A DNA stretch of 24,670 bases, taken from IMG/VR virus record IMGVR_UViG_3300014819_000066, positions 1-24,670 of that record. One strand, given 5' to 3'. Position 1 is the stretch's first letter. Each line of letters opens with the position of its first letter. Source of the stretch: a virus. The notes beneath the pieces were generated by a model. That model did no database searches. It had not been told where the DNA came from and saw only the letters and a program-made list of their open reading frames with translations. Shown piece after piece: positions 1 to 15,297 of the stretch. The translations under genes were made by a program, and so were the position numbers.

Positions 1-43
1 TGGATGCTATTACGCCTACCACGATTGTTAGGGTTTTTTTCAT
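1..43 (-). CDS. Exported or membrane protein, N-terminus only
   Basis: Only the first 14 codons are inside the window: ATG at 43-41, reading MKKTLTIVVGVIAS. Two lysines followed by an unbroken hydrophobic run look like the start of a Sec signal peptide or a membrane anchor. A strong Shine-Dalgarno, AAAGGAGA, sits five bases upstream of the ATG and decides the start. An extended -10 promoter (78-86) and an inverted repeat (54-73) precede it, so it probably heads a new transcript. A gene just after terminase with a signal sequence could be a lysis protein, a lipoprotein or an exclusion protein. Too little is visible to choose. Confidence 0.7.
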   Translation of the reverse strand, partial: MKKTLTIVVGVIAS

Positions 44-53
44 GGGGTCTCCT

Positions 54-73
54 TTGTCAGAAGTGCCTGACAA
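54..73 (-). promoter_or_regulatory. Inverted repeat at transcription start (operator or 5' hairpin)
   Basis: TTGTCAG-GCACTT-CTGACAA is a perfect 7-bp inverted repeat with a 6-base centre. It begins at the start site predicted from the -10 box at 78-83 and ends just before the Shine-Dalgarno of the gene at 43. It could be a repressor operator over the initial transcribed region or a protective 5' hairpin. A terminator is less likely because no T-run follows it. Confidence 0.55.
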
Positions 74-77
74 GAAT

Positions 78-86
78 ATTATACCA
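78..86 (-). promoter_or_regulatory. Extended -10 promoter for the exported-protein gene
   Basis: On the minus strand this reads TGG-TATAAT, a consensus -10 hexamer (78-83) with the TGn extension. No good -35 hexamer lies 16-18 bases upstream, as is usual for extended -10 promoters. The predicted start is near position 71. The same TGn-TATAAT form recurs at 269, 10605 and 15289. Confidence 0.6.
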
Positions 87-87
87 T

Positions 88-252
88 TCATTCATAAGAT
101 AAATTTTGATTTTGTTTGCTTAAAACCATTTTTGTTTGGTTTTGATAACGACCAGCACTCATTCTTTTTTGACTACGCAATAGGTTTCTTGGTCTTCGCA
201 AACGTAGGTGTTCACTTTCCCGATGATGAAACGGTATTACGTTTTTAGCCAT
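88..252 (-). CDS. Small basic protein of unknown function (54 aa)
   Basis: An open frame of 54 codons plus TGA starts at ATG 252-250, a few bases after GAGGAA, a good Shine-Dalgarno. The product is rich in Arg, Lys and Gln, with an arginine-rich stretch around residues 17-30 and almost no acidic residues apart from a few Glu, and no Cys. It starts MAKNVIPFHHRESEHLRLRR. Its charge suggests nucleic-acid binding, which is inference only. It has its own promoter (269-277), and the ribosome site and start codon lie inside a palindrome (249-264). It fills the space between terminase and the next gene with no better use. I do not recognise the family. A non-coding transcript is the alternative. Confidence 0.5.
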   Translation of the reverse strand: MAKNVIPFHHRESEHLRLRRPRNLLRSQKRMSAGRYQNQTKMVLSKQNQNLSYE

Positions 253-264
253 GATTCCTCATGG
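249..264 (-). promoter_or_regulatory. Palindrome over start site, ribosome site and start codon
   Basis: CCATGAGGAATCATGG is a perfect 6-4-6 inverted repeat. As RNA it is a short hairpin with a GGAA (GNRA-type) loop. The loop and 5' arm carry the Shine-Dalgarno, and the 3' arm carries the AUG of the 54-residue gene. The predicted transcription start (about 262) falls inside the left arm, so the RNA stem may be only four pairs. A DNA operator is an equally good reading. Confidence 0.5.
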
Positions 265-268
265 TTTA

Positions 269-277
269 ATTATATCA
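269..277 (-). promoter_or_regulatory. Extended -10 promoter after terminase
   Basis: TGA-TATAAT on the minus strand, with the hexamer at 269-274. A weak -35 (TTAATA, 292-297) sits 17 bases upstream inside the end of terminase. The hexamer is followed by TAAACC and then an ATG, the same spacing as the promoters at 10605 and 15289. Here that first ATG opens only a five-codon frame (ATG AGG AAT CAT GGC TAA). Confidence 0.6.
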
Positions 278-2077
278 TTACATTATATTAATATTAAATT
301 GTTTGAAATATGCATCCAGGTCTTTTTGCTCTGGTTTATTTTTTTGAATAATGTTACGCTTATCCCATTCATGCATTTCTTCAACGCTTTTCCTGTCACG
401 GAATGTATGGATTTCTACCATTTGATTTAAGTCTTTAGGTGTATGAGAGATAGCACCAAAAATAGCCCCACAAACAGCGTCTGCAAGGTCCTTAGAGGAC
501 TTTCTAGGGTGGTCTACACGATTACCTTTCATAATTTTTAGTTCTGTAAGTTCTTCATAAAGCAATTCAATGGCTGGCATAGCAAGTCTTTCTTCATACA
601 CAAGCATAGCCATGTCTTCATAGTGTTTTTTAGCAACAGAAACAGTTTCAGTACGAATACCAACTTGTTTCAATTCATTTTGAATATCAAATGACTGCCA
701 ACGGTCAAAGGAAACCATACCTATGTCAAAGCCCTGTCTGCGTAGGTTTTGAATCCATTGCTTTACTTCCGATAGATTAACAGGACCTTCTACTCTTGGT
801 TCCCAATACACTACCGCATCTACTACTACTACAGGTGCTACTTGTTGATAATCTTTAACTACCTGAATATTTACCCACTTTTCAACGTGAGCAATAGCAA
901 CAGCACACTTGTCGTGACGTTGTGCAAGGTCAGCATGAACAAAATATTTTTTATCTGGGTCTGGTTTAAAAGTTTCATCAAATCGTTTAGAATTATCAAT
1001 AGGGTTTCTAATTGTCATGCAAGCACGAACTTTTTCTGTTTGTTTAAAAAATGCATCAGACATGTAGGTTGGGATACAGGCAAAACGTTGCATAGCATCT
1101 CCAAGGTCTGTATAAAAGGCTAATTTAAAATCATCAATTTTACGAGTAGGATTTACTACCCAGGTTGGTCTTTTAATAGCAAACATTCCAGGAAATTTGT
1201 AAGATAGGATGGTGTCTTCTTCCCATTCAATTTCAAGACTGTTTCCTTCCGTATCTTCTGGTAAATCAGGATTCATAATAAATTTATGTTTCTTTACAAC
1301 CACTTCTTTGTCTGCAATCACTGAATCATACTTTTGACTGATGAAGTCTCCAGGATAACGTGGGAAAGATAGTAGGGCTACTTTGCCTAAGTCTGGAAAT
1401 CGGCTGTCTACAGAGGCACGAAAGGCTTTATAGATGTTATCTGCGGTCTTGCCTTGTTCATTACCAGTGCCAACTTCATTAGCAAAACCAGAAATTTCAT
1501 CTAGAACTGCTAAGATAAGGTTTAGACCTTCGTGAGATTCACGTTCGGAGTGTCCAGAATAAACAGTAATAGCATTATTAAACTCAATGCTATCTACTTT
1601 TGCATAATACTTTCCAGCAAACCATGGTGAGCGTTCAATCTTATTTTTAAATCCTTTAAAGAAAACGTTCTTAGCCTGTTGTGCGTTAACAGCGATGTTG
1701 ATAATATCAATAGCATCGCCAGTAGGCTTACCAAAATAACGAGCAGGGTCTTTAAGACAAAGTAGTTTATAAACTATATAGGAACAAGCAACAGTAGAAA
1801 CAAAATCTTTGCCAGAACCTTTACCAAGTTGTAGGATAACCTCATTCTTGGTATATTTATTGTAGTATCTACGACCTTCTTCGTCTCCAAGGATTTCAAT
1901 TACTTCTTCTAATCTGTAGATTTGAGACATTGCTTCAACAATGTCATACTGTATTTGAGATAGCGGTGGTTGGGCAAGATAATCTTCGCCTTCAACAAAT
2001 GTTTTTACATCTACTGGTCTTTCAGCAAATACATTACTTTTTAGTACTTCAAAGAACTCATTGAACATCGTGGACAA
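278..2077 (-). CDS. terL: Terminase large subunit
   Basis: DNA-packaging motor: an ATPase that translocates DNA into the prohead plus a nuclease that cuts the concatemer. Visible ATPase motifs are a Walker A variant GKGSGKD near residues 85-91 and Walker B LAVLDE ending at D193-E194. The C-terminal RNase H-like nuclease shows D383 (VHADLAQ), D458 (SFDRW) and D533 after KDLAD, the expected acidic triad. The full 599 residues are normal for the family. The frame opens with TTG at 2077, nine bases after AGGAAG. An ATG at 2068 gives 596 residues, but the ribosome site is then about 18 bases away, so TTG is favoured. It overlaps the end of the small-subunit gene by 20 bases, implying translational coupling. 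Confidence 0.95.
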   Translation of the reverse strand: MSTMFNEFFEVLKSNVFAERPVDVKTFVEGEDYLAQPPLSQIQYDIVEAMSQIYRLEEVIEILGDEEGRRYYNKYTKNEVILQLGKGSGKDFVSTVACSYIVYKLLCLKDPARYFGKPTGDAIDIINIAVNAQQAKNVFFKGFKNKIERSPWFAGKYYAKVDSIEFNNAITVYSGHSERESHEGLNLILAVLDEISGFANEVGTGNEQGKTADNIYKAFRASVDSRFPDLGKVALLSFPRYPGDFISQKYDSVIADKEVVVKKHKFIMNPDLPEDTEGNSLEIEWEEDTILSYKFPGMFAIKRPTWVVNPTRKIDDFKLAFYTDLGDAMQRFACIPTYMSDAFFKQTEKVRACMTIRNPIDNSKRFDETFKPDPDKKYFVHADLAQRHDKCAVAIAHVEKWVNIQVVKDYQQVAPVVVVDAVVYWEPRVEGPVNLSEVKQWIQNLRRQGFDIGMVSFDRWQSFDIQNELKQVGIRTETVSVAKKHYEDMAMLVYEERLAMPAIELLYEELTELKIMKGNRVDHPRKSSKDLADAVCGAIFGAISHTPKDLNQMVEIHTFRDRKSVEEMHEWDKRNIIQKNKPEQKDLDAYFKQFNINIM

Positions 2078-9800: not shown

Positions 9801-10107
9801 AGTGATTATAAACTAGGTCTAGGGGTGTTTCTTCACGTTCTTCCTTATCTCTTTGGTCAAAGCGGTCTTGTGCAATATATCCTTCAACACCAAGAATTGG
9901 CTTGATACCTTTTTCAATAGCGGTACGATACATTTCACGATGTCCAGATAAAGAACCGTGGTCAGTGATTGCGATGGCTGGCATTCCAATTTCGATTGCT
10001 CTGTCCACATATTCTTGTGGTGTTGCTATGCCATCAAATAAACTGAAATGTGAATGCACATGAAGTGCTACATAAGATTCTGATGTTTTGCTAATTGTTT
10101 TATCCAA
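6799..10107 (-). CDS. dnaE: DNA polymerase III alpha subunit (DnaE), phage replicative polymerase
   Basis: 1102 residues, a full C-family polymerase. The N-terminal PHP domain starts VALHVHSHFSLFDG and retains H16, H18, D25, H50, E75, H102, C152, D216 and H218. The palm carries GPGRGSAAGSL (390-399) and PDIDTDI (431-437) with D434 and D436, and the third aspartate is D579 in IKIDALGL. FNKSHAVAYSTVSYW and helix-hairpin-helix-like sequence (about 850-905) follow, then two OB-like segments (about 940-1000 and 1024-1102). The only start is TTG 10107, because a TAG lies two codons upstream. It lies inside the 3' end of the HNH gene, without a strong Shine-Dalgarno. It copies phage DNA. No epsilon proofreading subunit or clamp is encoded nearby. 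Confidence 0.96.
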   Translation of the reverse strand: MDKTISKTSESYVALHVHSHFSLFDGIATPQEYVDRAIEIGMPAIAITDHGSLSGHREMYRTAIEKGIKPILGVEGYIAQDRFDQRDKEEREETPLDLVYNHLIILAKNEKGLENLNKLNEIAWTEGFYKKPRMDWASLEKYKEGLIITSGCLSGFLAKAIEADDFAAAKEHLQWAKETFGDDYYIEVMPHNPPEINRTILALADEFNIKPIVTPDCHHAGPEQREIQELKLILNTYSNKIEKDATFAGSQKFDNLMDKLDYLYGADRQITFRDYEIHLLSDKEMHKSMEAQGIVRQDMYDNTIEIMNKVEDYNIKDHLDLLPAQYQNPDQELYELAMAGLDTRGVGADPTYHTRVEEELQIIKDKNFAPYFLVVRNMINWAKKENIMVGPGRGSAAGSLVCYALGITDIDPIQHGLLFFRFINPERNDFPDIDTDIQDSRREDVKDYLVRQYRHVASIATFLEFKGKGMVRDIARVLNIPLPDVNKVLKLVDDWDDYLNSKSTAEFREKYPEIELYGEQLRGRIRGTGIHAAGVVTAKEPIFKYAPLETRTTPGSKERIPVVAVDMEEAERIGLIKIDALGLKTLSVIQDTLAIIKERTGEDIDLHKVNMEDANVYRMLSDGFTKGVFQCEATPYTNLLVKMGIKNFNELAASNALVRPGAMNTIGKDYVARKHGKQNIDYKHQVLKAFTEETYGCILYQEQVMLACVELGGMTMAEADKVRKIIGKKKDAKEFDVFKDKFVKGASRYLTPNASEDLWHDFEAHAGYSFNKSHAVAYSTVSYWTAWLKYHYPIEFMYSLLKNESDKDARTEYLIEAKRMGIPVRLPHINESDVDFKIEGKGIRFGLSSIKFISDNIANKYIAARPFASYKELEEFTFTKGNGVNSRALQALRLVGAATFDDNPRNDEEVRENLYEYLNLPEFNTSIPQHYHAFINDVEEYEEKGAYILMGMIKNIKRGNGWSRVELLDKTGSIGIFDEENTTIEAGRTYLVLASDNRIVTAIPADEIKGNPSGLIKILNYRQLPYKDDELFVVSFKPRVTKAGKKMASLVLADTARDMHSVTVFPTSFSKAYMKIDEGNVYKFSLGKTKDGTVIMEDVENV

Positions 10108-10598
10108 TCTCTAAAGTCTTCTATTGACCTGTCTAATTTTGCCACATTGCACCATTTGCAACAGGCTACTACATTACTATATAAGTATCCCATACTAGGG
10201 TCTATTCTGTCAAGTCCATTCATAAAAATATGTGCGGACCATTTCCTATAACCTTTTGTTATGGTTGGTTTTGCATTACAATAAAAACAATTTTTTAAAG
10301 AAATTTCTTTAAATTGTTCTTCTGTTAAATTAAATCCTTTTTCTTTTGCATTTTTACGCCCTTTTACAATTAAATAATGATTTTTCCAAGTTATTTCTTC
10401 CGAAGATTTTCTTTTTAAGATACCCCTACATTGATAACAAGATTTTGCTTCTTTAAAATTTGTTGTTGGAGCAAGAAAAGTTTTATTGCAAAATGGACAA
10501 AGAAAATCCCAAGAGTTATGATTTTTTATTTTATAAGGACCAGATATAATTTTAACTCCAAAACTATTTATATCTCCTATTTGCACGTTAAGTCTCAT
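10068..10598 (-). CDS. HNH endonuclease with zinc ribbon, probable homing enzyme
   Basis: 176 residues. An N-terminal zinc ribbon (CPFC at 34-37 and CYQC further on) is followed by a zinc-bound HNH domain: CFYC, then NGLDRIDPSMGYLYSNVVACC with the His-less GLDRID pattern typical of phage HNHs, CKWC, and a final SIEDFRDWIKQL helix. Such genes are often mobile homing endonucleases in phages. Its DNA is visibly richer in A and T runs than the flanking SSB and polymerase genes. It has its own promoter directly before the ATG (10605-10613), sits after the SSB hairpin, and its 3' end overlaps the DnaE TTG start by 40 bases. Insertion at the 5' edge of dnaE is a reasonable inference. Confidence 0.85.
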   Translation of the reverse strand: MRLNVQIGDINSFGVKIISGPYKIKNHNSWDFLCPFCNKTFLAPTTNFKEAKSCYQCRGILKRKSSEEITWKNHYLIVKGRKNAKEKGFNLTEEQFKEISLKNCFYCNAKPTITKGYRKWSAHIFMNGLDRIDPSMGYLYSNVVACCKWCNVAKLDRSIEDFRDWIKQLAKHQNLM

Positions 10599-10604
10599 AT
10601 TTTA

Positions 10605-10613
10605 ATTATATCA
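10605..10613 (-). promoter_or_regulatory. Leaderless-type extended -10 promoter of the HNH gene
   Basis: TGA-TATAAT (hexamer 10605-10610), then exactly six bases TAAAAT, then ATG at 10598. Standard -10 to +1 spacing puts the start on the A of the AUG, so the message would have no leader, and no Shine-Dalgarno is present. The 15 bases TATAATTAAAATATG are identical at 15280-15294. It may also drive dnaE and genes beyond. Confidence 0.65.
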
Positions 10614-14844: not shown

Positions 14845-15282
14845 CTAATATCCGATTGCGGTAATATGAACCCAGTAATCTCCAGCAGCAATACCATCTG
14901 TACAATAGAACTGGTAATTTACCTGAGTTGCAGTTACTGAATTTATAATTGGAGTAACTGACTTATTTGCTGTTGCTCCAGAAAACTCTATTGTAATCTG
15001 GATTACTGGAGCAGTTGTAAAGACTACACCGCCAAAGCCCCAAGATGTACTTGGAGTTACACCTTTTGCATCTGTTTTAGGTGCCTGATACTTAATTCTT
15101 TCTCCAGCAAAAATCAACTCTGATACTGTTTGCTTGTTTGTTGCTGGTGCAATTTTTGAAGATTTATTAAAGGTGCTAGAATTGGTTAGGCTATATAGGT
15201 CATTGATTGAGGTTGCAATCGTAGTAAGATATGACAGGTCTAGTGGCTGTCCAGATGAAGGTAGTGGTATTGTATTTCCCAT
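14845..15282 (-). CDS. Tail-tip or fibre protein (145 aa)
   Basis: 145 residues. It starts MGNTIPLPSSGQPLDLSYL with a short helix (TTIATSINDLYSL), the type of N-terminal attachment segment seen in small baseplate and fibre proteins. A beta-rich domain follows (SWGFGGVVFTTAPVIQITIEFSG...NYQFYCTDGIAAGDYWVHITAIGY), resembling a jelly-roll tip that may bind a surface. It ends the tail block and sits just before the regulator gene. Its promoter (15289-15297) would give a leaderless message starting at the ATG, and no Shine-Dalgarno is visible. The exact place in the virion is unknown. Confidence 0.65.
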   Translation of the reverse strand: MGNTIPLPSSGQPLDLSYLTTIATSINDLYSLTNSSTFNKSSKIAPATNKQTVSELIFAGERIKYQAPKTDAKGVTPSTSWGFGGVVFTTAPVIQITIEFSGATANKSVTPIINSVTATQVNYQFYCTDGIAAGDYWVHITAIGY

Positions 15283-15288
15283 ATTTTA

Positions 15289-15297
15289 ATTATACCA
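15289..15297 (-). promoter_or_regulatory. Leaderless-type extended -10 promoter in the tail block
   Basis: TGG-TATAAT (15289-15294), six bases TAAAAT, then ATG at 15282. The 15 bases from the hexamer through the ATG are identical to the promoter of the HNH gene. It lies in an 18-base gap, so the gap holds little else. The predicted start is the A of the AUG. Confidence 0.65.

Follow-up and report, generated by a model that had tools for sequence, protein, structure and literature searches.

The window, meaning the whole stretch of DNA that was analysed, is a virus record of 24,670 bases whose long frames lie on the minus strand. Besides a terminase large subunit it encodes, among others, proteins resembling DNA polymerase III alpha and RecA. 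The best 20 annotated matches of the terminase are 52-54% identical to it, every one from a Streptomyces phage, and 127 Streptomyces and 105 Gordonia phages are found among the 353 records matched. Directly after the terminase lies the gene of a basic protein of 54 residues, p54. The initial annotation had placed a promoter, a palindrome, two ATG codons and a five-codon frame in this interval, and the coordinates of all of these proved correct. The features discussed below, together with three comparison sites, are as follows.

278..2077, minus strand: terminase large subunit frame, whose stop TAA (280-278) abuts the promoter element.
269..277, minus strand: extended -10 element TGATATAAT, directly after the terminase stop.
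263..268, minus strand: six-base spacer TAAACC between the -10 element and the predicted +1, fixed in length and free in sequence.
260..262, minus strand: 5'-terminal AUG at the predicted transcription start (+1 = A262), assigned from conservation and the leaderless N6 spacing.
257..260, minus strand: Shine-Dalgarno motif GAGG, overlapping the first AUG by one base.
245..262, minus strand: five-codon frame ATG AGG AAT CAT GGC TAA (M-R-N-H-G-stop), out of frame with the p54 start and overlapping it.
249..264, minus strand: palindrome CCATGA GGAA TCATGG (CCATGAGGAATCATGG), with six perfect pairs around GGAA.
88..252, minus strand: p54, starting at ATG 252-250.
41..86, minus strand: comparison leader with TGGTATAAT (86-78), N6, a hairpin, AGGAG (53-49) and the ATG (43-41) of the next gene.
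10068..10613, minus strand: comparison site, a frame of 176 amino acids with a predicted leaderless start, TGATATAAT-N6-ATG.
14845..15297, minus strand: comparison site, a frame of 145 amino acids with a predicted leaderless start, TGGTATAAT-N6-ATG.

Read along the minus strand, the order at p54 is thus TGATATAAT, TAAACC, ATG (262-260), AGGAATC and the ATG (252-250) of p54. The palindrome had been described as covering the predicted +1, the Shine-Dalgarno motif and the AUG of p54. It does so, but it does not lie wholly within the RNA, because two of its bases, C264 and C263, precede the predicted +1 at A262.

The p54 protein has no match in Pfam, PHROGs, phage records or genome_contigs, and its AlphaFold model is of low confidence (pLDDT 63.7, pTM 0.19). 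An alignment of 26 members, in which column identity averages 72%, marks p54 as a real protein family. Relatives of the locus (L001-L096 and L098-L170) were collected by terminase and p54 searches of viral_contigs, of which the best 80 of at least 599 terminase candidates and the best 80 of 134 p54 candidates were kept, so other arrangements may exist. The arrangement of p54 differs among them, and in one set of loci the gene stands alone beside the terminase. In three other loci that were checked, p54 homologues are nested in another frame of the long gene after the terminase (stop-to-stop in locus coordinates, L007 8199-8363, L015 3090-3272 and L019 5625-5789). These nested homologues have AGGAGG a few bases before GTG or TTG, while the gene is free-standing in the clade of the window. 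Altogether, the promoter module is present in 32 of 66 distinct p54 contexts, and all 32 have an ATG at the same place; the 66 include loci from pattern scans, with L220 and L211 known solely from a scan that required the ATG, and L187 and L096 are one record. Nested copies are among the 34 contexts that lack the promoter, as are a few that carry nothing but a Shine-Dalgarno motif. In L220 (396-423), the promoter-ATG-ATG module and p54 stand behind a different upstream sequence, an observation that is not counted as evidence because the pattern that found it required the ATG.

The TGNTATAAT motif is not rare in the window, where four copies were found against 2.5 expected, and all four are on the minus strand directly before a predicted gene start. 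After N6, two of the copies are followed by the ATG of a long frame (at 10598 and 15282), one by the first ATG of p54 and one, from the seventh base, by the hairpin of the comparison leader. In 12 related records, one of them without a match, the pattern TGNTATAATN{0,20}ATG gave 101 matches, compared with 11 for the reversed pattern. The distance was six bases in 39 of the 93 ATG matches outside p54, while the next commonest distance accounted for seven, in a count that includes homologous places in related records. The loci searched contain 47 distinct TGNTATAAT-N6-RTG places. Of these, the 25 that belong to p54 open short frames and the remaining 22 open frames that are 26 codons or longer, and within this set a short frame at the N6-RTG position was seen for p54 only. 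Because N6 is the spacing of leaderless genes in these phages, the first ATG of p54 occupies the position of a leaderless start. On sequence grounds, the p54 mRNA most likely begins with 5'-AUG at A262, the predicted start, so that the Shine-Dalgarno motif would occupy +3 to +6 and the p54 AUG would follow at +11. A -35-like TTAATA with 10 of 12 consensus matches occurs 17 bases from the -10 element, but two such promoter sites occur in 700 bases where 2.2 are expected, so the -35-like match adds nothing.

Both start codons are kept among relatives. All 28 distinct loci in which p54 lies no more than 120 bases from the terminase have the arrangement TGNTATAAT-N6-ATG-N7-RTG; this set was drawn from loci up to L170 by protein matches alone, without a DNA pattern, and reduced from 55 loci. 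The first ATG is present in all 28, and p54 itself starts with ATG in 27 of them and with GTG in the remaining one. Given the relatedness of the loci, the number of independent trials is far smaller than 28 of 28 suggests. A second group of 10 loci has its promoter across the terminase stop codon and a different spacer sequence, while the distances are unchanged. For L110, L117, L118, L126 and others of this group, the TGNTATAAT stretch serves as coding end and promoter at once. A pattern scan that required the ATG (111 stretches, 109 matches examined, 34 tagged as p54 and L220 in addition) was excluded from the conservation claim. A further scan of viral_contigs with A, C or G at +2 found the p54 motif in none of the 120 loci among the matches listed, a result that yields no rate.

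The leader was then compared column by column on a tree of terminase and p54 from 30 loci, including the window. Members of this set had to show TGNTATAAT, the p54 motif and a start codon 16 bases further along, with no first ATG required; L111, L121 and L092, which were too short, identical sequences and all loci above L170 were dropped. Since the promoter and spacing columns are fixed by this choice, the leader columns alone count as evidence. Zero changes were found at A+1, T+2, G+3 and G+6. The 11 free columns, which are the N of TGN, the six spacer columns (4-9 changes per column) and +7 to +10 of the leader, each had 2-9 parsimony changes, with a mean of 6.8. At that mean, the Poisson probability of zero changes at T+2 is about 0.001, an approximation that takes no account of columns changing at different rates. 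Positions +4/+5 are GA or AG only, so that GGAG (16 of 30 loci) or GAGG is retained, and the four bases before the p54 start vary freely among relatives. In all 30 loci the Shine-Dalgarno-led start of p54 lies at +11, out of frame with the first AUG. While the choice of start site could keep A+1 and the Shine-Dalgarno motif could keep G+3, T+2 is dispensable for the Shine-Dalgarno motif and is left as the sole base that strictly needs an explanation through the AUG.

The frame opened by the first ATG ends inside p54 within seven codons in all 30 loci, and has five codons in 22 of them, six in one and seven in seven. When the p54 codons were redrawn from the codon usage of the window, closure within seven codons was expected for 63% of frames, and because the loci are related the excess is judged to be weak evidence. 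The peptides vary (MRNHG, MEQHG, MRHNG, MEHNA, MRNYGQP and others), and the recurrence of M, of R or E at position 2 and mostly of G at position 5 arises because the leader and the p54 codons dictate them. A conserved leader peptide was rejected on this variation. The proposal of a tiny leaderless leader peptide is therefore supported as regards the start codon, which is present in 28 of 28 loci at the leaderless N6 spacing, and not as regards the peptide. Because the peptide varies, the AUG is the likely target of selection.

The leader of the next gene provides a comparison. Its hairpin, GTCAGGCACTTCTGAC (71-56, minus strand), begins at the predicted +1 and ends just before the Shine-Dalgarno motif. 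Compensatory changes occur in three of its six pairs (GUUGG/CCAAC, GUCAG/CUGAC, AUCAG/CUGAU), and among 18 distinct 16-base hairpins the pairing is 96% with 19 double-sided cells, a number of cells reached by none of 500 shuffles. The base before GGAG is A in all 68 distinct hairpin leaders of the loci collected and T in all 16 p54 leaders of the GGAG type. The gene behind the hairpin leader has a PA14 domain in both loci tested (L004 and L007) and, by eye, an N terminus resembling a signal peptide. Taking the start codon as lying 5-9 bases after GGAG, at the start of this N terminus, 64 distinct hairpin leaders with a long frame have ATT in 42, ATC in 4, ATA in 3 and ATG in 15. The gene of the window (start 41-43) belongs to the ATG class and is the counterpart of genes in L003, L006-L008, L010-L012, L015, L017-L019, L045, L046, L050 and other loci. 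ATT has been reported to initiate Shine-Dalgarno-led translation in mycobacteria (PMC4633059). Conservation of a start codon other than AUG across a family of phage genes seems to merit a study of its own.

An AUG within three bases of the 5' end of an mRNA with a Shine-Dalgarno-led gene has been described in Escherichia coli for ptrB, rcnR and iscR (Beck et al. 2016, PMC4965119). As in p54, where its place is predicted, the AUG of these mRNAs lies close to the 5' end or directly at it, in a different frame from the Shine-Dalgarno-led start, and opens a short frame that overlaps or lies near the gene. Replacement of the 5'-uAUG of ptrB with AUC cut expression by 93%, destruction of the 5'-uAUG changed downstream expression by at most 18% in nine of 13 genes, and 70S ribosomes bound the 5'-uAUGs of the four mRNAs tested by toeprint (PMC4965119). 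The authors suggested a standby or loading site, and their Discussion allowed that some 5'-uAUGs may be due to chance, without selection (PMC4965119). The dimensions are different, with a 26-nt leader and a 21-codon frame in ptrB (PMC4965119) and a predicted 10-nt leader and a frame of 5-7 codons in p54. Unlike the E. coli mRNAs, for which expression was measured (PMC4965119), p54 has a Shine-Dalgarno motif that overlaps the first AUG and a spacing fixed across relatives. By analogy, the p54 leader fits the standby or loading model in miniature.

Two further systems bear some resemblance to p54. In mycobacteria, a 5' ATG or GTG was reported to be necessary and sufficient for leaderless translation (Shell et al. 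2015, PMC4633059). Leaderless small ORFs described there resemble the predicted p54 transcript in that an ATG at the 5' end opens a short frame extending, out of frame, into the downstream gene. The closest annotated phages, judged by the terminase, infect Actinobacteria. In that report an RTGA-coupled class is over-represented among the mycobacterial ORFs and some of the peptides are conserved, whereas the p54 frame stops a few bases inside the gene and its peptide varies (PMC4633059). The 'TA-led' leaderless genes carry a TATAAT-like box that precedes the start codon by about 12 bases (PMC3160421), and the phages considered here have such a box at a fixed N6 for several frames. In contrast to the 'TA-led' genes, the ATG at that place in p54 is not the start of the gene. 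A literature search over the titles and abstract openings of open-licence articles found no reports of such leaders in phages.

The first AUG is quite probably under selection as a 5'-terminal AUG, and the comparative evidence leans towards a model in which this AUG, conserved on a Shine-Dalgarno-led mRNA, would load ribosomes for p54. If the first AUG is selected, loading, which is a positive effect, is the likely role rather than that of a decoy; we infer this direction, as we do the start site and the binding of ribosomes. Specifically, the transcript from the promoter would begin with AUG, giving 5'-AUGRRGNNNNAUG for the p54 messenger. A ribosome would then bind the 5'-terminal AUG directly at the end of the mRNA, as at leaderless genes, which should be possible because this AUG is at the leaderless start position. 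The captured ribosome may shift ten bases to the p54 AUG. Alternatively, it may read the frame of 5-7 codons, stop just inside p54 and re-initiate. The leader has a predicted length of ten bases, and its Shine-Dalgarno motif is without the A that precedes GGAG in the hairpin leaders.

The evidence on the first AUG can also be read in two other ways. As a decoy, it would draw leaderless initiation that occupies the end of the mRNA and lowers or gates p54 translation, so that p54 would rise only when leaderless initiation is poor or after re-initiation. The two starts are ten bases apart, a distance that we infer to be too close for two ribosomes at once, and in E. coli destruction of the 5'-AUG raised the expression of iscR by 33% and of mngR by 52% (PMC4965119). 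The closure of the short frame inside p54 in 30 of 30 loci also speaks for a decoy, but so short a frame would release the terminating ribosome beside the p54 AUG, and a weaker Shine-Dalgarno motif would be a simpler way to lower p54. A decoy is for these reasons considered unlikely. A slightly less likely explanation is that the first AUG has no function, with A+1 a preference of the polymerase, G+3 part of the Shine-Dalgarno motif and T+2 due to chance or to a preference among the initially transcribed bases. It gains from the fact that T+2 alone strictly needs another explanation and from the dependence among loci. It is at odds with the constancy of T+2 beside the free columns, and with the T itself, which stands where A was found in all 68 comparable Shine-Dalgarno contexts. 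Moreover, most hairpin leaders have G at the predicted +1 and the second bases of leadered promoters are various, so A+1 and T+2 seem to be no general need of the promoter.

The palindrome had suggested a repressor operator or an RNA switch that hides the start. Perfect 6-4-6 inverted repeats number 14 in the window, compared with a mean of 10 and a maximum of 18 in 60 first-order Markov resamples, so the palindrome alone is not beyond chance. Two ATGs ten bases apart already give two of the pairs and fix one partner of two more, and once both ATGs are in place, base composition alone would yield six Watson-Crick pairs with a probability of about 0.003, or about 0.04 if G-U is allowed. In a switch, CCAUGA-GGAA-UCAUGG would hide the Shine-Dalgarno motif and the start, perhaps only in transcripts that read through from the terminase, which would restrict p54 synthesis to transcripts from its own promoter. 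The hairpin of the window does fold well when the upstream CC is included (-7.7 kcal/mol, z -5.4). From +1 it is no better than shuffles (z +1.2), as the two outer bases are upstream of A262, leaving four pairs and -1.4 kcal/mol for the 19-nt 5' end. Nine relatives were folded with the two upstream bases included: three gave values near -6 kcal/mol, two gave -2 to -3 kcal/mol, and the other four were weaker than -1 kcal/mol. Alignment of the arms across relatives, the check that the initial annotation had proposed, revealed double-sided changes in none of the six pairs among 22 distinct sequences, and pairs break at three of the six positions. The same test detected covariation in three of six pairs of the neighbouring leader hairpin, which served as a positive control. 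Arm pairing is 87.1%, compared with 88.0% in shuffles, 439 of 500 of which were as high or higher. With G-U counted, all six pairs are present in six of 16 distinct window-type and two of six distinct second-group sequences. No Rfam match was found up to E = 1 in positions 1-400 of the window. A switch is accordingly very improbable. A dimeric repressor bound to the DNA is still less credible: a position over +1 would suit repression and the symmetry is perfect in the window, but only two of the 22 distinct 16-mers, that of the window and one common to L103 and L105, have six perfect Watson-Crick pairs, the arms show no double-sided changes, and there is no second copy of them in the window within two mismatches. 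From the alignment, pair counts and folding, both operator and switch were rejected as conserved devices, and the palindrome results from the placing of two AUGs at a distance of ten bases.

A broader but doubtful proposal is that these phages rely on a single type of promoter, whose start site is fixed, and that the content of the 5' end sets the mode of translation, the p54 leader being a dual-mode start. If this were true, a 5' AUG alone would specify leaderless translation, an AUG followed ten bases on by a Shine-Dalgarno-led AUG would specify p54, and a hairpin with a Shine-Dalgarno motif, often with an AUU, AUC or AUA start, would be a third mode. The p54 protein would then be produced regardless of which mode of initiation, 70S (leaderless) or 30S (Shine-Dalgarno), is favoured in the infected cell.

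Overall, this group of phages appears to keep a 5'-AUG base for base while the surrounding bases drift. Earlier work on 5'-terminal AUGs before Shine-Dalgarno-led genes was carried out with E. coli reporters (PMC4965119). If confirmed, the p54 leader would be evidence, from the comparison of relatives, that selection can maintain a 5'-AUG as a handle for ribosomes, and would also supply a very small cassette of 25 bases for measuring the hand-over from leaderless to Shine-Dalgarno initiation.
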